Of a DNA stretch of 64,000 nt, positions 22,354-61,341 are shown piece after piece. The DNA comes from Akkermansia muciniphila (GTDB lineage Bacteria > Verrucomicrobiota > Verrucomicrobiia > Limisphaerales > BJHT01). Within the stretch, counting starts at the first letter, position 1; each line of letters starts with the position of its first letter. Below the pieces are notes generated by a model that was not told the DNA's origin, searched no databases, and saw only the letters and a list, made by a program, of their open reading frames with translations. The stretch is from contig CAMAUZ010000036.1 of NCBI GenBank assembly GCA_945861535.1, forward strand, positions 1 through 64,000, written 5' to 3'. The translations under genes and the position numbers were made by a program.

Positions 22354-23847
22354 ATGAAACTGAATCGCCGCACCTTCTCCGTCCGCGCCCTCGGGCTGCT
22401 CTGTGCCGCGCACCTGCTCGTCCACGCCGCGCTCACCGCAACTGCCGCCGCCGCCGTGCCGCGTCCGAAACAACTCCGCGCCGGCGCGGCCACCGCGAAT
22501 CTCACGCCGCCGCTCGGCTCCGACATCATCGGCGGCTTCCTGCCGTTTCCCGCGACGCACGTTCACGATGAACTGCTCGCGCGCTGTCTCGTGCTCGATG
22601 ACGGCACCACGCAGCTCGCGCTGGTCGTGTGCGATCTGCTCGGTCTGCACCGCAGCGTGGGTGTTGAGGCGCGAAAAATGATCGAGGCGGCGACGGGTAT
22701 TCCGGCGGCGAACGTGATGATCTCCGGCACGCACACGCACTCGGCGGCGAGCGCGCTGGGCACCACGCCGCGCGGCTATTTTTCGGATCGCGAGCTGGAC
22801 GAGTACCAGCGCTTCGTTGCGCGCCGCGTCGCCGACGGCGTGCGCAATGCGGCGAATCTGCTGCGGCCTGCACAGATCGCGTTCGGCACCGCCGAGGCGC
22901 CCGAGCACGTCTTCAACCGCCGCTGGATCATGCGCGACGGCACGGTGCCGGTGACACCCTTCGGCACCAAGGCGGACACGGTGAAAATGAATCCGCCGGG
23001 CGGCAGCAAGGACCTCACCGAACCCGCGGGACCGACCGATCCGACCGTTTCCTTCATCGCGCTGCGCGAGCCGAATGGCCGCCTCATTTCGGTGTTCTCG
23101 GCCTACTCGCTGCACTACGTCGGTGGTGTCGGTGGCGGGCATATTTCCGCCGACTACTACGGCATGTACTGCGAGGCGTTGAAGAAACTGCAGGCAGGCG
23201 CGGAGAACGATCCGCCGTTCGTGGCGCTCATGGCCAACGGCACCAGCGGTGACGTGAACAACATCAACTTCCGCACACCGCGCCCCGGGCAGCCGCCGTA
23301 CGCGCAGATGCGCTTCGTGGCCGAGGATGTGGCGAACAAAGTCCACGCCGCGCTGGCGAAGGTGACGTGGAAGGACGCCGCGCCGCTGGCCGCGCGTTAT
23401 CGCGAGCTGGACAACATCGCGTGGCGCAAGGTCGAGCCGGAGCTGCTCGCGTGGGCGAAGGACACCGAGGCCAAGGCCACCGGTACGATTGGCAAGGCCA
23501 GCCTGGCGACGGTATATGCCGGGCGAATTCAGCGGCTCGCGCAGGCCAGTCCGCAGACCAAGGCGCCCGTGCAGGTGCTGCGCCTCGGGGACATTTGCAT
23601 CGGCACCACGCCGACAGAGACCTTTGCGGAGACGGGCTTGGAGTTCAAAAAACGCAGCCCCTTCGCGCAGTCGTTCATGGTCGAGCTGGCCAATGGTTAT
23701 TACGGCTACATGCCTCCGCCGCGGCACTTCGCGCTCGGCGGTTACGAGACGTGGCCGGGGACCAACTACCTGGAACAACAGGCCTCCGTGAAGATGATGG
23801 ATGCTCTGCTGGAACTGGCGAAGGAACTGCGGGAGGAAACGAAATGA
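22354..23847 (+). CDS. Secreted neutral/alkaline ceramidase-like protein
   Basis: A 497-residue protein with an export signal (NRRTFSVRALGLLCAAHLLV, possibly Tat-like because of the twin Arg). It then resembles the N-terminal catalytic domain of neutral ceramidases: RAGAATANLTPPLGSDIIGG, DDGTTQLALVVCDLLG, MISGTHTHSA (metal-binding His pair, about 127-136) and FVALMANGTSGDVNN. These proteins usually hydrolyse ceramide amide bonds, but in Verrucomicrobiota the substrate is not established. The C-terminal immunoglobulin-like domain of true ceramidases is missing, as is common in this group. Its stop overlaps the next start (ATGA), so the subtilase-like gene is co-expressed. Confidence 0.85.
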   Translation: MKLNRRTFSVRALGLLCAAHLLVHAALTATAAAAVPRPKQLRAGAATANLTPPLGSDIIGGFLPFPATHVHDELLARCLVLDDGTTQLALVVCDLLGLHRSVGVEARKMIEAATGIPAANVMISGTHTHSAASALGTTPRGYFSDRELDEYQRFVARRVADGVRNAANLLRPAQIAFGTAEAPEHVFNRRWIMRDGTVPVTPFGTKADTVKMNPPGGSKDLTEPAGPTDPTVSFIALREPNGRLISVFSAYSLHYVGGVGGGHISADYYGMYCEALKKLQAGAENDPPFVALMANGTSGDVNNINFRTPRPGQPPYAQMRFVAEDVANKVHAALAKVTWKDAAPLAARYRELDNIAWRKVEPELLAWAKDTEAKATGTIGKASLATVYAGRIQRLAQASPQTKAPVQVLRLGDICIGTTPTETFAETGLEFKKRSPFAQSFMVELANGYYGYMPPPRHFALGGYETWPGTNYLEQQASVKMMDALLELAKELREETK

Positions 23848-24914
23848 AGACTGCGCGAAGCCAGACCGGAAGGGGCGCGGCGTTTACGCCGCTTCACGGT
23901 GGAGCGCACTGTGATGTTCGAAAACGCTGCGAGCCACGCACGTTGAAGCGGCCTGAAGGCCGCGCTCCTCTCTCGCTTCTCGCCCTCATGCTTTTACTCC
24001 TCACCCTCGTCCCGCTGCGCGCGGGCGAGCCGGTCAATCCCGTCGAGTTTCGCCACGCACGCATTACCGACGCGTGGGAAAAATACGCCAAGGTCCTCAC
24101 CTTCGGTCGCGGCCAGACGCTCGCGCTCGTGGACGACGGCTGCAAACTCGCCATGCCCGAGTGGACCGCAATCGTGGACGGCGTGCCCAAAGTGCGCGTG
24201 GCTTGGGACGCCGTGGATGGCGATCCCGATCCCAAGCACGAAGGTCGCGGCTATCACGGCTCGACGATCGGCATCCCGTCGTCACTGAACCTCAATGGCA
24301 AATGGGGCGTGGCCTACAACAATCAGGTCGCGGTCATCCGCGGCCTTGAGTGTTGCCATTGCAAAATCGCCGACAGCGCGCCGCTCGCCCGCGCGTTGCA
24401 ATGGATCATCGAGCACCACGCCGAACACCGCATCACCACCGTCAACCTTGCGCCCGTCGATGACCTCGCGCACGGCGCGCCCGTGCCCACCGAGATCGAC
24501 GCCCCGCTCGCCAGACTCCGCGAACTGGGCATCTGGGTCAGCGCGCCCGCCGGCAATCATCACTTCACCAACGGCATCTCGTGGCCCGCGTCGCAGCCCA
24601 ACTGCTTCGCCATCGGTGCGGTGAAACCCGGCGTGGATGTCGTCATTCTCGATCGCGACGCGAAGATCGTTCTCGTCGTTCCCGCCAGTGCCACCAGTTC
24701 CTCCAACGCCATCGCCTGCGGGGCCGCGATGATTCTGCGCGAAGCCATCGAACGCAGCGGTTACCCGTGGAAAACCGACGGCAAAAATCTCCCCGAAGCC
24801 ATGCTCGCCATCTTCCAAAAAACCGGCAAACCCGTGCCGGACCCCGCCACCAAACTCACCTTCCGCCGTCTCGACCTCCTCGCCGCGCTGGACCATGTGA
24901 TGAAAAAGCCGTGA
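23844..24914 (+). CDS. Secreted subtilisin-like (S8) protease with repeat-derived leader
   Basis: A 356-residue protein. The catalytic triad is recognisable: Asp in LALVDDGCKL (about 94-103), His in GRGYHGSTIG (about 133-142), Ser in TSSSNAIACGAAM (about 288-300), with Asn of the oxyanion hole in SAPAGNHH. It should be exported by the hydrophobic segment LLALMLLLLTLVPLRAG (residues about 44-60). The start at ATG 23844 overlaps the upstream stop and has GGGAGGA before it. Residues about 10-42 are encoded by a palindromic repeat (23871-23969), giving an abnormally long basic region before the signal helix. An alternative ATG at 23988 (MLLLLTLVPLRAG) would omit it but lacks a clear ribosome site. 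Confidence 0.75.
   Translation: MKTARSQTGRGAAFTPLHGGAHCDVRKRCEPRTLKRPEGRAPLSLLALMLLLLTLVPLRAGEPVNPVEFRHARITDAWEKYAKVLTFGRGQTLALVDDGCKLAMPEWTAIVDGVPKVRVAWDAVDGDPDPKHEGRGYHGSTIGIPSSLNLNGKWGVAYNNQVAVIRGLECCHCKIADSAPLARALQWIIEHHAEHRITTVNLAPVDDLAHGAPVPTEIDAPLARLRELGIWVSAPAGNHHFTNGISWPASQPNCFAIGAVKPGVDVVILDRDAKIVLVVPASATSSSNAIACGAAMILREAIERSGYPWKTDGKNLPEAMLAIFQKTGKPVPDPATKLTFRRLDLLAALDHVMKKP
23871..23969. repeat. 99-bp palindromic element inside the subtilase reading frame
   Basis: AGGGGCGCGGCGTTTACGCC and following bases (to 23896) pair imperfectly with 23944-23969 (TGAAGCGGCCTGAAGGCCGC and following). The same element type is intergenic at 57270-57366. Its length of 99 bases is a multiple of three and it contains no stop in the gene's frame. 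Confidence 0.8.
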
Positions 24915-25063: not shown

Positions 25064-25207
25064 TCCTGTGGGTCAGGCTTCCAGCCTGACGGTTCGGGCG
25101 GCATCCTTGCCGCCTGTTCCGGCGGCGGCCGTGGGGCGCGGTGGAACCGGGAACACGGGGCAAGGATGCCCCGTGAACCGGCAGGCAAGGATGCCTGCCT
25201 CACAGGC
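25064..25207. repeat. Palindromic element D, copy 1 (GGGGCAGGCATCC type)
   Basis: About 144 bases running from TGTGGGTCAGGCTTCCAGCC to GCAAGGATGCCTGCCTCAC, with inner GCGGCATCCTTGCCGCC and GGGGCAAGGATGCCCC hairpins. Further copies lie at 47961-48097 and 61203-61341. The remaining bases of 24915-25314 hold no gene. Confidence 0.85.
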
Positions 25208-26438: not shown

Positions 26439-27590
26439 GTGAAGCCCCCCGAAACAACGCCCGAGTCCGCCGCCGCCACTGCCGAGGTGCGGCTGGAGGC
26501 TGGCGGGCGCGCGGTGGTGGTGCTGCGCGGGCGGCTGGATTCGCTGACGGCGATGGGGCCGTGGCGGCAGGTGGAGCAGCGCCTGCATGGGGTCGCGGTC
26601 ACGGCGCTGGAAGTGGACGCGGGCGGGATCGAGTATTGCGACGGCTCGGGCATGGCGTTGCTGCACTGCTTGCAGATGGGTTTCCTCACGCCGGGCGCGA
26701 CAGTGACGGTGCGCGGTCTCACGCCGGAGTTGCAGCGGAGTTTCGATAATTTTTCGGCGGCGGATTATCGCGCGAGCGTGCCGCCGCCACCGCTGCGTAA
26801 TCACATTCCGACCGACCTCGGGCGCGGGGCGCGGGCGATGGCGCGGGATTTTGTCGAGCAGGTGCGGTTCATCGGCGCGGTCGCGCAGGGATTGGTGGGG
26901 ACGTTGTTCCGACCGCGGCTGATGCGGTGGGATGAGGTCATGCGGGTGTTCGAGTCCGCGGGTGCCAACGCGCTGCCGATCGTGTCGTTGATCAGCCTGC
27001 TGGTGGGCCTGGTGATCGCGTTCGAGGCGGCGCAACCGCTGGCGTTGTTCGGCGCGCAAATTTTCATCGCGGACATGATCGGGCTGGTGATGGTGCGCGA
27101 GCTGGGGCCGATGATGGCGGCGATCATTCTGGCGGGGCGCTCCGGCTCGGCCTTCGCCGCCGAACTGGGGACGATGAAGGTGAACGAGGAGCTGAACGCG
27201 CTGCAGACGATGGGCCTCGACCCGGTGCGGTTTCTCGTGGTGCAACGCGTCGTGGCCTCCGTGCTGCTCACGCCGCTGCTGACGGTGTACGCGATGTTCA
27301 TGGGCGTGCTGGGCGGCGTGCTGGTGATGCTGGGCATCGGATTTCCCCTCGTGGCGATTTACAACGAACTGGTCCTGCGGCTGACGGCGGGCGACGTGTT
27401 GATCGGCACGACCAAGGGCGTGGTGTTCGGCCTCATTGTCGCGGCGGTCGGCTGCCTGCGCGGGCTGCAAACGCAGAAAGGCCCCAGCGCCGTCGGCGCA
27501 TCGACGACGCGCGCGGTGGTGAGCAGCATCCTGTTGATCATCGTGACGGACGCGGGGTTTTCGATCCTGCTCTACGTGCTGCGCCAATGA
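26439..27590 (+). CDS. mlaE: MlaE-type lipid transport permease fused to a STAS domain
   Basis: A 383-residue inner-membrane protein from a GTG start. Residues about 15-110 form a STAS domain (VVVLRGRLDSLTAMG, IEYCDGSGMALLH), the role played by separate MlaB in E. coli. Residues about 165-383 are the MlaE permease: LVGLVIAFEAAQPL, the signature VRELGPMMAAIILAGRSGSA and the coupling E-L-G-T-M-K-V-N-E-E-L-N-A-L segment. It should move phospholipids, or similar lipids, across the inner membrane with the ATPase and MCE protein encoded next. Its stop overlaps the MlaF start (ATGA). Confidence 0.92.
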   Translation: MKPPETTPESAAATAEVRLEAGGRAVVVLRGRLDSLTAMGPWRQVEQRLHGVAVTALEVDAGGIEYCDGSGMALLHCLQMGFLTPGATVTVRGLTPELQRSFDNFSAADYRASVPPPPLRNHIPTDLGRGARAMARDFVEQVRFIGAVAQGLVGTLFRPRLMRWDEVMRVFESAGANALPIVSLISLLVGLVIAFEAAQPLALFGAQIFIADMIGLVMVRELGPMMAAIILAGRSGSAFAAELGTMKVNEELNALQTMGLDPVRFLVVQRVVASVLLTPLLTVYAMFMGVLGGVLVMLGIGFPLVAIYNELVLRLTAGDVLIGTTKGVVFGLIVAAVGCLRGLQTQKGPSAVGASTTRAVVSSILLIIVTDAGFSILLYVLRQ

Positions 27591-28375
27591 ACGACCACGA
27601 CATCGCCATCGCCGTGAAGGGGCTGAAGGTCGGCTACGACCACGTCGTGGTGCTGAAAGACATCAGCTTCGAGGTGCGGCGCGGCGAGGTGTTCGTGATT
27701 CTCGGCGGCTCAGGTTGCGGCAAGAGCACGCTCCTCAAACACCTCATCGGCCTGTTTGAACCGATGGCGGGCGAGGTCTGGATCGAGGGCGTCAATCTGG
27801 TTGCCGCCGAGGGCGAGGCGCGGCGGCGGTTGTTGCGGAGGTTTGGCGTGATGTACCAGAGCGGCGCGCTGTTCGGCTCGCTGACGGTGCTCGAGAACGT
27901 GCGGCTGCCCCTGGACATTTTCACCGACCTGCCGGAGCGCGCGCGCAATCTGGTCGCGCTCGGCAAGCTCAAGCAGGTCGGCCTGGCCGCGGCGGCGCAT
28001 CAGCAACCGGCCGAGCTCAGCGGCGGGATGCAGAAGCGCGCCGCCATCGCCCGCGCCATGGCGCTGGACCCGGGCATCCTCTTTCTCGACGAACCCTCGG
28101 CCGGCCTCGACCCCGTGACGTCGGCGGGCCTGGACGCGCTGATCAACGATCTCGCGGAAAACATGGGCATTACCTTTGTGATCGTGACGCACGAACTGCC
28201 CAGCATTTATGCGGTCGCCGACCGGGTCATCATGCTCGACCAGAAAACGCGCACGCTGATCGCGGAAGGGCGGCCCGAGGCGTTGCGCGACCATTCGCCC
28301 AACCCGTGGGTGCGCCAGTTTTTCAAACGCGAAGCCGAACCCTCCGTCACCGCCACCCCGACCACCCCGACCTGA
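27587..28375 (+). CDS. mlaF: MlaF-type ABC ATPase of lipid transport
   Basis: A 262-residue ATPase. Walker A is GGSGCGKS (about 44-51), the signature is ELSGGMQKR, the MlaF-typical variant of LSGGQ, Walker B is ILFLDEPSAGLDP, and the switch His lies in IVTHELPS. Y-Q-S-G-A-L-F-G-S-L-T-V matches the MlaF Q-loop region. It overlaps mlaE by four bases and is followed seven bases later by mlaD, so the three form one transporter. Confidence 0.93.
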   Translation: MNDHDIAIAVKGLKVGYDHVVVLKDISFEVRRGEVFVILGGSGCGKSTLLKHLIGLFEPMAGEVWIEGVNLVAAEGEARRRLLRRFGVMYQSGALFGSLTVLENVRLPLDIFTDLPERARNLVALGKLKQVGLAAAAHQQPAELSGGMQKRAAIARAMALDPGILFLDEPSAGLDPVTSAGLDALINDLAENMGITFVIVTHELPSIYAVADRVIMLDQKTRTLIAEGRPEALRDHSPNPWVRQFFKREAEPSVTATPTTPT

Positions 28376-28381
28376 TTGCCC

Positions 28382-29494
28382 ATGAGTGTACGCAGCAACC
28401 ATCTGAAAATCGGCCTGTTCGTCCTGGCCGCCTTCGCCATCCTCGTCGCGGCTCTGTTCGTTTTTGGGGCGCGCAATTATTTCGAGGAGAAGAAGTCGTT
28501 TGAAACCTACGTGGTGGGCGATGTCGAGGGCCTCTCGGTCGGCTCGGCGGTGTGGTTGCGCGGCGTGCCCGTGGGCAAGGTCAACCGGATCACCTTCACT
28601 TGGATCGACTATCCGGCAGCGACGAACACAGGCTATGTGCTGGTGCAGTTTGATGTGAAGGCGCGGGTCATTCCCCAACTGCGCGCGCAGACTTTCGAGC
28701 AGTTGTTGCTGGAACACATCGGCCGCGGTCTGCGCGCGCGGGTCAAGGGCGTGGGCGTCACGGGGACCAGCATTCTGTCGCTCGAATACATCGACCCGCC
28801 GCCGCCGCTGCCCATGGAGATCACCTGGGTGCCGAACAATCACTACATCCCGTCGGCGGAAACGCAGTTCAGCCAGATGCTGACCTCGATTGAGAAATCG
28901 CTGCGCAACCTGCGCGAGGTGGATTTCGACAAGGTGGCCAAGCAGCTCGGGCAGGTGCTGGCCTCGACGGACAAACTCGTGCAGGAGGTCACCAAGGTGA
29001 ACTTCGACCGGCTCGGGGCGGAGGCGACGCGGCTGCTCGCCGAGGTCCGCGAGACCAATCAGAAACTGCAAACGAACCTCATCGACAAACTCGGCGGCGA
29101 CGCGGGCCGGCTGTTCGACAAGCTCGGCGGCGACGCCGGGAAGCTGCTGACCGAGGCGCGGGAGAGCAATCAGAAGCTGCAGGCCACGCTCGACGACGCC
29201 CGTGCGGGCATTCGTGCCGTGAAGCTCGACACGCTTACCACGAACCTCACCGCCGTGAGTCAGCACGCGGACCAGCTCCTGCTCGACGTGGCGGAATCCA
29301 ATCGGAAATTACAGCAGCTCTTCGACCGGCTGAACTCGCTGAACCTGGCACCGCTGAACACGTCGCTCGAAAACGCCCGCAACGCGACGGAGCATCTCGA
29401 CAGCGTGTTGCGCGATCTGAAGCAATATCCGTCGGGCTTTCTGTTCGGCACGCCGCCGCCGCCGGCGCGCAGTCTGCAGAGGCCGGGGAAATGA
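28382..29494 (+). CDS. mlaD: MlaD-type MCE protein with long helical tail
   Basis: A 370-residue protein with one N-terminal membrane helix (LKIGLFVLAAFAILVAALFV) and an MCE domain (about 40-130: VEGLSVGSAVWLRGVPVGKV). MCE domains form rings through which lipid passes. From about 155 a long amphipathic helical tail follows, including two near-identical units, DKLGGDAGRLF and DKLGGDAGKLL. Such tails can build needle- or tube-like extensions towards the outer membrane, as in PqiB. The start at ATG 28382 is preferred to TTG two codons upstream. Confidence 0.9.
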   Translation: MSVRSNHLKIGLFVLAAFAILVAALFVFGARNYFEEKKSFETYVVGDVEGLSVGSAVWLRGVPVGKVNRITFTWIDYPAATNTGYVLVQFDVKARVIPQLRAQTFEQLLLEHIGRGLRARVKGVGVTGTSILSLEYIDPPPPLPMEITWVPNNHYIPSAETQFSQMLTSIEKSLRNLREVDFDKVAKQLGQVLASTDKLVQEVTKVNFDRLGAEATRLLAEVRETNQKLQTNLIDKLGGDAGRLFDKLGGDAGKLLTEARESNQKLQATLDDARAGIRAVKLDTLTTNLTAVSQHADQLLLDVAESNRKLQQLFDRLNSLNLAPLNTSLENARNATEHLDSVLRDLKQYPSGFLFGTPPPPARSLQRPGK

Positions 29495-29524
29495 AACGGA
29501 AACGCACGAACTACAACGCACCGC

Positions 29525-30400
29525 ATGACTACACGCCCCATGCAAACGACTTTGATTGATCGCTGTCTCGCCGCGCCGCCGCCCAGGAACCAGTGGGTAG
29601 GGCGCGCCTGTCCTCAGCGCGCCGCCGCACCGTTCGAACGTCCCGCCGGCGCGCTGAGGACAGGCGCGCCCTACCTGCCGCGGCGTGGGACCGTCCGCCG
29701 GTTTGGAGTTCCGGCTTTAGCCGGCGGAGCGTGGAAAGGAGCGCGAGGTGCGAGATGGAGAGTCGCGTGTTGTCGGAGCGTTCGCCGCCTGAAGGCGGGA
29801 CTCCAAACTGTCGCCGCCATCGCCGCCGCGTGTTTGCTCATGATCACGTTCACCGGCTGTCTTTCCCGTCCGCCGTTGGCGCGGGAAACGTTTGCGCTGA
29901 CGCTGCCCGCCGCGCCGGAATCCACGAACGCGAGCGGCACCGCCGTGCTGTTGCTCCGCAGCGTCGTGGTCGCGCCGATGTTCGATGGCAAGGCGCTGGT
30001 GTATCGCCTCGGCGAGCACACCTGGGAACAAGACCCGTATGCGGAATTTCTCGTGCCGCCCGCCGCGATGCTCGCCGGTCCGTTGCGGACGGCGCTGCGT
30101 CGCAGCGGGGTTTTCCGCGACGTGATCGAGCCGGGCAGCGCGCTCACACCGGACCGGGTCGCGGAAATTCAGGTCACGGAGTTTTATGGCGACTTTCGCA
30201 AACAAGCCGAGCCGGCGGCGGTGCTCATGTTGCGATGCACGATCTTCGACACCGGGCCGAAACAGTCGGTGCGGTTGCAGAAGGAGTACGTGCGGCGGCT
30301 CGCGCTCCCCGAGCGTACTGCGGCCGGGGTAGTGGCGGGATGGAATGAAGCGCTGGGGCAGATATTGGGTGAGCTGGTGGCGGATTTGCAGGGGCGGTGA
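29525..30400 (+). CDS. PqiC-like lipoprotein of the lipid transport operon, with repeat-derived leader
   Basis: A 291-residue protein by the longest frame. The mature part, from about residue 110, resembles the ABC-type transport auxiliary lipoproteins (PqiC family): FALTLPAAPES, LLLRSVVVAPMFDGKALVYR, a signature of the family, and VTEFYGDFR. The lipobox is ITFTGC (Cys about residue 111) after the hydrophobic VAAIAAACLLM. Between the first codons and this signal are about 75 codons made of two palindromic repeats (29597-29674 and 29701-29809). No ATG, GTG or TTG at a sensible place follows them in frame, so translation probably reads through both. It is the fourth gene after mlaEFD, 30 bases from mlaD. 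Confidence 0.75.
   Translation: MTTRPMQTTLIDRCLAAPPPRNQWVGRACPQRAAAPFERPAGALRTGAPYLPRRGTVRRFGVPALAGGAWKGARGARWRVACCRSVRRLKAGLQTVAAIAAACLLMITFTGCLSRPPLARETFALTLPAAPESTNASGTAVLLLRSVVVAPMFDGKALVYRLGEHTWEQDPYAEFLVPPAAMLAGPLRTALRRSGVFRDVIEPGSALTPDRVAEIQVTEFYGDFRKQAEPAAVLMLRCTIFDTGPKQSVRLQKEYVRRLALPERTAAGVVAGWNEALGQILGELVADLQGR
29597..29674. repeat. Palindromic element with perfect 27-bp arms inside the PqiC-like frame
   Basis: GTAGGGCGCGCCTGTCCTCA and following (29597-29623) is the exact reverse complement of 29648-29674; the 24-base loop contains CGTTCGAACG. Length 78 bases, a multiple of three. Confidence 0.92.
29701..29809. repeat. Palindromic element, GTTTGGAGTTCCG type, copy 1
   Basis: Outer arms GTTTGGAGTtCCGgCTTtAG (29701 onward) and its imperfect complement ending ACTCCAAAC at 29809. 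A perfect version lies at 59821-59892. It falls inside the PqiC-like reading frame, directly before the signal peptide helix. Confidence 0.8.
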
Positions 30401-31597: not shown

Positions 31598-31675
31598 GGC
31601 GGGCGCGAGCGTGGCAGAGGCGCGGATTTTTCTCGAACGGTTTTGTCGCGATCTGCGGGGCGGCGGGGCAGGGGA

Positions 31676-31770
31676 GGGAATGGCGAACGACGAATGGCGA
31701 ATGGCGAATGGGGAATGGCGAATGGGGAATGGGGAATGGCGAATGGGGAATGGGGAATGGGAAGGGGGGA
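31676..31770. repeat. Short tandem repeat of GAATGGC/GAATGGG units
   Basis: About twelve 7- to 8-base units alternate GCGAATGG and GGGAATGG between the KdsD gene and a terminator. Such an array is prone to slippage. It lies upstream of the minus-strand kdsD gene, so it may sit within or near its promoter. Confidence 0.85.
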
Positions 31771-31774
31771 ATGC

Positions 31775-31813
31775 AAAACGGGCAGACCTGGCGGTCTGCC
31801 CGTGGTGTTTTTT
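31775..31813. terminator. Hairpin terminator between kdsD and the small secreted-protein gene
   Basis: CGGGCAGACC (31779-31788) pairs with GGTCTGCCCG (31793-31802) around TGGC. On the minus strand it is followed by TTTTGC and lies 28 bases past the end of the gene at 31841-32305, its likely user. A TTTTTT run at 31808-31813 would also serve the plus strand. Confidence 0.8.
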
Positions 31814-47702: not shown

Positions 47703-47960
47703 AGGGGTTCTCACGAGAATTGCCCCACAATCTGGGATTATTCCCGCCCTGTCGGCGACCTGCCGGTGAGTAATCCCGCATTGCGCGTGAAATTCCCGCT
47801 CCGCGTGGGATTCGCGCGCCGGTGGGCGGCTGGCGGCCGGCGGCCGTAACTCTTTCCGGCGGTGCCAAGGAGGCCAGCCGACGCATCTCAGTTTCCTGCT
47901 ACCCTGGGCAGGCACGGGTGCCGTTCGCGAGGAAACCGGCGGCGGCACGCGCGCGGGCGG

Positions 47961-48097
47961 GGTGGGGCAGGCATCCTTGCCTGCCAGTTCGGGCGGCATC
48001 CCTGCCGCCCGTTTCCATGGCCGAGTCCCCCCCGCGGAACTGGGAACACGGGGCAGGGATGCCCCGCCCACTGGCAGGCAAGGATGCCTGCCCCACC
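47961..48097. repeat. Palindromic element D, copy 2
   Basis: Arms GTGGGGCAGGCATCCTTGCC and GGCAAGGATGCCTGCCCCAC with the same inner hairpins as the copies at 25064 and 61203. Bases 48098-48221 show no gene. Confidence 0.88.
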
Positions 48098-48221
48098 CGG
48101 CTGGCGCGGACGCCAAGCCGCGGGCAAGAAACTGAGCTGCGCCCGAGGCCAACGCCCCGCAGCGGCGGTGGGGCTTCCGGTCGCGGCTGAACACAACGCG
48201 GGCCGCCCTCCGGCCAAAGGG

Positions 48222-48944
48222 TCATGGTTTACCGATGCTCTGCCGGCATTGCCAGGCGAAGGCGAAGAGCTGGCGCAGGTTCGAGGCGATGGTGCGGAGG
48301 TTTTTGACTTTGGATTCACCGCTCAACCGGGGCCGCACCGTCGTGGGCAGGCTCGTCACGCGGCAGCCGCTGCGCGACGCCTTGATGATGAACTCCATCA
48401 CGATCATCCAGCCCCGTCCCTGCGAGTGGAGCGGGATGCGGGCGAGCAGCTCGCGGCGGAAAAGCATCACGCCTTGGAAGCGCGGCAGCGGACCCAGCAG
48501 CACGCGCAGGATGAGCCGCTCGGCCCAGGAGAGGAACCGGGCGGCCAGGCCGCAGGGACGTGCGGGCAGATAGCCGAGCACGAGATCGTGAGTCGCCGTG
48601 TGCGGCAGGAATTGCGCGAGGATGTCGGGCGGAAACTGACCGTCGGCGGGGAAGAAGCTGACGAACTCGCCGCGCGCCTCGGCGAATCCCGTGCGATAGA
48701 CGCCGCCCAAACCGAGGTTGACGGGATGCTGCACCACGCGGACGGCGGACAGTTCGGCGACGAGGTCCGCCGCGACCTGCGGCGTGCCATCGGTGCTGCC
48801 GTCGTTGATGAGGATCAGCTCGAAGGTGCGGTGCAAGGCCGTGAGCGCGGCGTGCAGTTCGCGGACCGTGGCGGCGAGATTCTCCGCTTCGTTGAAAGCG
48901 AGGATGCAGACGGTCAACTCCGGGCTGGCCGGCGGCGCGCTCAC
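48222..48944 (-). CDS. GT2 glycosyltransferase, last gene of the sugar operon
   Basis: A 240-residue enzyme. LTVCILAFNEAENL, ILINDGSTDGT (nucleotide-sugar Asp pair) and FVSFFPADGQFPPD (metal-binding D-x-D equivalent, ADGQ) are diagnostic for the DPM1-like branch of family 2; N-L-G-L-G-G-V-Y-R-T-G is the acceptor loop. No C-terminal membrane helix pair is present. It starts with GTG at 48944, overlapping the preceding TGA by four bases (GTGA), which fixes the start although the frame is open upstream. It probably transfers a sugar to a lipid carrier. Confidence 0.85.
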   Translation of the reverse strand: MSAPPASPELTVCILAFNEAENLAATVRELHAALTALHRTFELILINDGSTDGTPQVAADLVAELSAVRVVQHPVNLGLGGVYRTGFAEARGEFVSFFPADGQFPPDILAQFLPHTATHDLVLGYLPARPCGLAARFLSWAERLILRVLLGPLPRFQGVMLFRRELLARIPLHSQGRGWMIVMEFIIKASRSGCRVTSLPTTVRPRLSGESKVKNLRTIASNLRQLFAFAWQCRQSIGKP

Positions 48945-49456
48945 GGGCGGAGGCGGAGCACGCGGGCGGGCACGCCGACCGCGATGGCGAAGTCCGGCAC
49001 ATCCTGAGTCACCACGGCGCCCGCGCCGATTTGCGCCCCTGCGCCGATGCGCACGCCGGGCAGGAGGATGCAACCCGCGCCGAGGTCCGCGCCATCGCCC
49101 ACGCTCACCGGCGCAAACTGCACCGGCGCGTGCAAAATTGGGCGGCTGACATCCCCCAGCTCGTGCTGCGACGTGAGTATCTTCACGCCCGGCCCGACGC
49201 CGACATTCCGGCCCAGCACGATGCCCCCGGCCGAATGCAGGAAACATTGCTGCCCGATCCAGCAGCCGTCGCCGATGACGAACCGATTCTTGTAGTAGCC
49301 CTTGAGAATGGCCTGGTGGCCGACGTACACGTCGTCACCGAGCTCAATGTTTTCCGGGTGGAAAACGAGCACGCCCGGCTCGAAGACGACGTTTTGACCG
49401 AGCCGCGCAAACTGTTCCGTTGTGAACGCACCGGTGCCGTGGGAGCGGGGTTTCAT
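48941..49456 (-). CDS. Left-handed beta-helix acyltransferase (WbbJ-like)
   Basis: A 171-residue acetyl-CoA-dependent O- or N-acyltransferase with hexapeptide repeats: GDGCWIGQQCFLHSAGGIVL, VGPGVKILTSQHE (catalytic-type His), VGDGADLGAGCILLPGVRIG and the closing GAGAVVTQDVPDFAIAVGVP. It should decorate a surface sugar. Both ends overlap neighbours by four bases. Confidence 0.88.
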   Translation of the reverse strand: MKPRSHGTGAFTTEQFARLGQNVVFEPGVLVFHPENIELGDDVYVGHQAILKGYYKNRFVIGDGCWIGQQCFLHSAGGIVLGRNVGVGPGVKILTSQHELGDVSRPILHAPVQFAPVSVGDGADLGAGCILLPGVRIGAGAQIGAGAVVTQDVPDFAIAVGVPARVLRLRP

Positions 49457-61104: not shown

Positions 61105-61202
61105 AGGGAGCGCACGGCGCGTGGCGCATCTCAGTTTCTTGCAACGGACGATGCGTGTTGGCGCAGTCCTGAAGGAATGACCGGGTGCGGCGGCGCCGGT
61201 CC

Positions 61203-61341
61203 TGTGGGGCAGGCATCCCTGCCTGCCGGTTCGGGCGGCATCTTGCCGCCCGTTTCTAACGGCGGACGTGCGGCGCGGCGGAACCGGGAACCCGGGGCAG
61301 GGATGCCCCGTGAACCGGCAGGCAGGGATGCCTGCCCCACA
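61203..61341. repeat. Palindromic element D, copy 3
   Basis: From TGTGGGGCAGGCATCCCTGC to GGCAGGGATGCCTGCCCCAC, with inner hairpins as in copies at 25064 and 47961. It ends 100 bases before the glycosidase-GT2 gene. Confidence 0.9.

Follow-up and report, generated by a model that had tools for sequence, protein, structure and literature searches.

Mobile palindromic repeats are probably read as part of the signal peptide of an Mla-type auxiliary lipoprotein

The lipoprotein gene at 29525-30400 of the DNA stretch analysed here (64,000 nucleotides in all, hereafter 'the window'; taken from contig C36 of G000, a Verrucomicrobiota genome of 7.94 Mb) raises the question whether ribosomes translate mobile DNA before they reach an export signal, because two palindromic elements lie between its first ATG and its signal helix, and the original prediction held that the ribosome reads both of them. 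The encoded protein matches PF03886 (ABC_trans_aux, PqiC-like) with 41.8 bits against a curated Pfam cut-off of 26, and its gene is the last in an operon that encodes, on the plus strand and with ATGA overlaps and tight spacing (26439..29494), an MlaE permease with STAS domain (26439-27590; Pfam MlaE and STAS_2), an MlaF-type ATPase (27587-28375; ABC_tran) and MlaD (28376-29494; MlaD), all of them above the respective Pfam cut-offs. Since the neighbours are of the MlaE, MlaF and MlaD types, and not the pqiA and pqiB that accompany PqiC proper, 'auxiliary lipoprotein of an Mla-type transporter' is the better name. The signal helix with its lipobox (VAAIAAACLLMITFTGC; 29810..29860, plus strand) aligns with the helix and the Cys of orthologs, the Gly-Cys of the lipobox being invariant in an alignment of five orthologs (Cys at 29858), and the mature part (29861..30400, plus strand) is delineated by the Pfam match, the orthologs and a gene-like codon usage.

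Folding and genome copy numbers confirm that the two elements are real, although their sizes differ slightly from those first given. The first, E1 (29596..29675, unstranded), is a REPIN-like, GTAG-tagged REP doublet of 80 bp with perfect 29-bp arms (not 78 bp with arms of 27), which is read as VGRACPQRAAAPFERPAGALRTGAPY. Its outer ends are sharp and carry the GTAG tetranucleotide of REP doublets (GGTAGGG...CCCTACC), and its RNA fold of -79.7 kcal/mol (z = -11.8) is equalled by no shuffle. Exact E1 15-mers occur 33 times in the 7.94 Mb genome, and at least 45 distinct copies were found, most of them 79-80 bp long, 36 of them intergenic, and in all sorts of contexts; like a REPIN, E1 is thus an inverted REP pair that forms a hairpin and has many dispersed, mainly extragenic copies. 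The second, E2 (29701..29808, unstranded; GTTTGGAGTTCCG...CGGGACTCCAAAC, read as FGVPALAGGAWKGARGARWRVACCRSVRRLKAGLQ), comprises 108 bp (not 109), that is 36 codons, has outer arms that are ~81% complementary, and folds with -64.6 kcal/mol (z = -6.1). Its exact end GTTTGGAGTTCCG is present 59 times in the 7.94 Mb genome, in which the reversed pattern has a count of zero, and its family comprises some ten relatives of nearly full length besides many shorter variants. E2 shares with REPINs the many dispersed copies with inverted ends; it is not filed as a GTAG REP because its ends, GTTTGGAG, are devoid of GTAG. E1 and E2 thus represent two different, unrelated families of dispersed repeats, far above chance, and both are also present in a second genome of the same genus (G001), where E1 copies are many.

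Nine matches to Y1 (RAYT-type) transposases were identified in the genome (L107-L115). One has an E1 copy ~0.7 kb away on a single side and none is bracketed by E1; E2 ends were found near none of the nine, which leaves E2 devoid of a cognate RAYT among them. The RAYT-type genes L113, L114 and L115 are flanked by palindrome families of their own (GGAGCGCCGAGCATTGCTCGGC, CGGAGCGCGGCTGTGTC and GTAGCTCGACATTCC). By virtue of its end GGTAGGG, E1 can supply a start codon: inserted behind AT or GT, it yields an ATG or GTG that continues into the stop-free E1 frame, as is seen at L036, L039, L145 and C1:161846 of G000. The window is itself rich in different palindrome families; further large palindromes at 61202-61341, 47949-48108 and 25083-25186 belong to one family (GGCAGGCATCCCTGCCTGCC), and next to a KpsF-like gene lies an array of degenerate GGGAATGGCGAATG-like units in tandem (31662-31775).

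The answer that we consider probable is that both repeats are translated as an over-long signal-peptide n-region that is removed after export, where we infer initiation, export and cleavage from the sequence. The mobile repeats, the REP doublet E1 and the similar element E2, would have transposed into the leader, among the first codons of the gene, in frames open by chance. Translation would begin at the in-frame and unstructured ATG29525 (29525..29527, plus strand; alternatively at ATG29540 in the same frame), and would pass through both repeats without encountering a stop, yielding a signal peptide whose n-region is Arg-rich and extends over about 95 residues. Helix and lipobox would be unchanged, and the extension would depart with the signal peptide, so that the mature lipoprotein would be normal; as the sequence of an n-region matters little and is discarded, repeats could persist there.

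The frame is indeed unbroken upstream of, between and downstream of the elements. E1 and E2 account for about 63 codons, or about 71 if the spacer between them is included (LPRRGTVRR in the lipoprotein frame, and thus n-region-like), compared with the roughly 75 repeat-derived codons predicted. Two of the three forward frames are stop-free in E1, and likewise in E2; hence the openness of the frame by itself says little about translation, and we rejected it as proof. Positive charge was likewise rejected as a special trait of the repeat peptides: the repeat region (72 residues) is Arg-rich with a net charge of +15, but random open noncoding stretches have an equal mean charge (+2.9 per 27 codons), and such a charge is what open stretches of the GC-rich genome G000 typically have. 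One point against translation of the repeats is that the usual start of orthologs, an ATG over the MlaD stop, is here out of frame: ATG29491 overlaps that stop just as the repeat-free orthologs begin at an ATGA overlap, yet it opens a frame of only 22 codons (MKRKRTNYNAPHDYTPHANDFD; 29491..29559, plus strand) which ends before E1. The insertions might thus have displaced the old start and left a silent gene, with the frame as a young relic, and the absence of the lipoprotein from the congener would fit such a loss. We consider this unlikely, considering that the domain is intact (41.8 versus 26 bits), stop-free and gene-like in its codon usage, and that the frame continues before, between and after the two elements.

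Support for translation of the repeats from an upstream start comes from the choice of start codons. Three in-frame start codons precede E1 (ATG29525, ATG29540 and TTG29552). Thereafter no ATG, GTG or TTG is found in frame until TTG29834 and ATG29840, and none from E2 to the signal helix; these two codons already belong to the helix and precede the lipobox Cys at 29858 by just 8 and 6 residues, so that the view that no reasonable start follows the repeats holds. Shine-Dalgarno matches are no commoner at 362 unambiguous ATG starts than at random sites (1.26 Mb sample of G000); the motif thus appears unused, its absence at ATG29525 is uninformative, and a repeat-borne start that relies on it was dropped for the window genome. 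In contrast, true starts in G000 are weakly structured (mean of -7.4 versus -16.6 kcal/mol at random sites), and ATG29525 with -5.1 kcal/mol falls at the 60th percentile of true starts. A search for a non-AUG start near the helix, which would speak against the original prediction, yielded only CTG29789, which is located within the right E2 arm (MKAGLQTVAAIAAACLLMITFTGC) and is the sole later codon able to serve. If it were used, the repeats would constitute an untranslated leader, with E2 donating the start and the first residues; the codon is in frame, has a GGAG 10 nt upstream and would yield a textbook 24-residue lipoprotein signal. However, CTG is a very rare start codon, this one is buried in a strong hairpin (its -20.1 kcal/mol corresponds to the 2nd percentile of true starts), starts in G000 show no enrichment of Shine-Dalgarno matches such as its GGAG, and the parallel genes described in the following have a conserved ATG upstream of their repeats, which together renders initiation at CTG29789 quite improbable.

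Comparison with sister genes in the congener G001 provides evidence that repeats at such positions are read. (i) In G000, the gene for a DctP solute-binding protein (PF03480) reads MNRLLSRFFAWNL, then E1 (27 aa, read in the frame that it also has in the lipoprotein gene) and then PSRFVALLLLAGCVLGGSAQAAT, with no start codon after E1, which is thus obligately read. In G001 the end of the upstream gene and the TTTATGAACCGA start are the same as in G000 and are followed by MNRLSSRFPSAVAGLLAVALCCSAAAAHAAQV, without any element. Because the remainder of the signal peptide has also diverged, this does not represent a clean one-step insertion. The comparison with repeat-free orthologs that had been proposed could thus be made within the genus for DctP, but not for the window gene, of which no congener ortholog was found. 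(ii) In a very long exported protein of G000 (C1:161846), E1 is located between a conserved ATGAAATC start and the helix, and the G001 ortholog, 93% identical downstream, has the pair GTAGGAGTCGACGTC...GTCTCCTAC at this site and a second, related stretch behind it. (iii) C52:19951 of G000 carries E2, its G001 ortholog (88%) carries the GTAGGAG pair, and 5' flank and start are conserved; GTAGGAG ends were counted 19 times in the 0.8 Mb sample of G001 and 20 times in the 1.26 Mb sample of G000. Neither G001 ortholog in (ii) and (iii) has a usable canonical start after the repeat. Hence, unrelated repeats share one n-region across sister species while the start remains fixed, and the sister-gene comparison shows that repeats evidently do get translated into export signals in this group. 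The notion that the ribosome reads the repeats first is thus supported, as DctP and two other genes keep in G001 the start that lies upstream of the repeats.

A second such case had been announced for the window, and this is most likely the palindrome at 23871-23969 before the gene ending at 24911 (23844..24914, plus strand). Its ATG23844 overlaps the stop of the upstream gene and is followed by the palindrome, which contains a single TTG (23943), and then by the signal helix (LSLLALMLLLLTLV). The fold at ATG23844 is -6.4 kcal/mol compared with -20.4 kcal/mol at TTG23943, the same pattern as in the lipoprotein gene. The open reading frame 47850-49004 was rejected as a candidate for this second case, being antisense to a gene-like frame and devoid of a Pfam match.

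How frequent such arrangements are was assessed with 378 elements of palindromic families classified in 1.26 Mb of G000, of which 290 are intergenic or other, 13 gene-interior and the remainder near gene starts. Repeats account for 15% of the bases in noncoding DNA, for 12% in n-regions (measured from the nearest start to the helix) and for 0.15% in gene interiors. In 8 of 313 genes with a signal helix in the G000 sample, the stretch from the nearest start to the helix contains 45 or more repeat bases, and seven of these were retained after manual filtering; in one of the eight, on C4, a GTG follows the repeat. In the 0.8 Mb sample of G001, none of 216 signal-helix genes is an obligate case and n-regions are nearly repeat-free. 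A simple test revealed no significant enrichment in signal peptides (8/313 with helix versus 5/404 without, p = 0.26), and manual reading of the five cases without a helix indicates that they resemble misplaced coding starts, with an ATG after the repeat. The phenomenon is thus real but rare (about 1-2% of exported proteins); that repeats prefer n-regions is suggested, not proven. In-frame repeats also precede two prepilin-like N termini in G000 (C1:38455-38597, SRSGFTLIELLLVL; C8:9285-9434, RGSSGYALLTVM), where the leader is likewise cleaved.

Relatives of the lipoprotein gene were detected in 33 of 320 genomes of the order. None was found in G001, where the Mla-type operon (26439-30400) has no DNA-level ortholog, none is located beside KpsF in the close named relative BJHT01, and a scan of named genomes yielded none. 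Long n-regions are usual for the family. Orthologs without a leader repeat include G054 and G014, which have short leaders (MKALPLFAAF... and MKHRQPSRRAF...), as well as G084 and G127. The leaders of G009, G038 and G260, which represent three other genera, contain unrelated palindromic or repetitive sequences in open frames, which are dispersed in their own genomes; for the leader hairpin of G089, multicopy status was not confirmed. In all four a later GTG or ATG could be the start, and the leaders of G009, G038 and G089 exhibit AGGAG-like sites together with an in-frame GTG; the leaders of G009, G038 and G260 therefore document recurrence at the site, not obligate translation. A role of the hairpins as RNA devices that reduce, stabilise or time the expression of the operon's final gene, translated or not, appears highly improbable: the hairpins are very stable and located at the MlaD/lipoprotein junction, REPs mostly lie between genes that are co-directional or convergent, with an action at the RNA level suggested for them (PMC3733652), and unrelated elements recur in the same leader in other genera, but G054, G014, G084, G127 and many other orthologs have no repeat there, E1 copies occur in every kind of context, and ribosomes melt a translated hairpin. 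Of the 'tolerance, or use' that had been envisaged for repeats at this place, tolerance fits, while use is unsupported, because the elements vary among orthologs and many orthologs have none.

A wider suggestion is put forward tentatively: the n-regions of export signals in this lineage might constitute a standing refuge for palindromic mobile repeats, where selection would be very weak, in-frame turnover would approach intergenic density, and repeats would swap identity between sister species. If so, they would provide a natural supply of new signal-peptide extensions. Signal-peptide n-regions may offer mobile DNA an entry point into genes at low cost. REPs are extragenic by definition, and N-terminal ones have been disregarded as likely errors of annotation. 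Cases in which a sister species keeps the start codon, and in which one repeat family stands where the other species has another, make their translation testable; they also warn gene callers that a start called downstream of such a repeat may be misplaced.

Palindromes and REPs in frame are already known, also from Verrucomicrobia; what is new is their recurrence in n-regions, the conservation of starts between sister species as evidence that N-terminal REPs are read, and the occupation of one n-region by unrelated repeats across sister species. Intragenic GTAG-tagged REPs are most numerous in Opitutus terrae (Verrucomicrobia), and GTAG doublets in frame add 20-30 residues each, sometimes two per gene and many of them N-terminal (Di Nocera et al. 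2013, PMC3733652). Most N-terminal cases were suspected to be extragenic, since translation may start downstream, and were inferred to be non-coding for several species (PMC3733652). We likewise observe GTAG doublets in frame, but the congener-conserved upstream starts argue for reading, and the sites are signal-peptide n-regions. E1 also resembles the REPINs of the REPIN-RAYT system (Bertels and Rainey 2011, PMC3116915), being a dispersed, mostly intergenic inverted REP pair in a genome with RAYT genes; however, a RAYT with E1 or E2 on both sides was not found, the ends of E2 carry no GTAG, and the copies considered here reside inside a frame. Rickettsia palindromic elements (Ogata et al., reviewed in PMC10969869) are likewise dispersed palindromes in frame in coding genes, and proteins decorated with them at the N terminus are expressed (PMC3733652). 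They differ in sequence and host and occur in many kinds of protein, compared with signal-peptide n-regions here, and the ends of our elements deviate from the CGTC tag and the family sequence. Sec signals that carry a long N-terminal extension are also present in exported proteins, namely autotransporters (PMC2805444); these are not known to originate from mobile repeats. The enterobacterial RU-2 in YPO1552 is a mobile repeat that is part of a Yersinia signal peptide (PMC2759123): RU-2 forms part of the signal peptide itself at one annotated locus, whereas the repeats described here would only lengthen the n-region, and would do so in several genes and two species.
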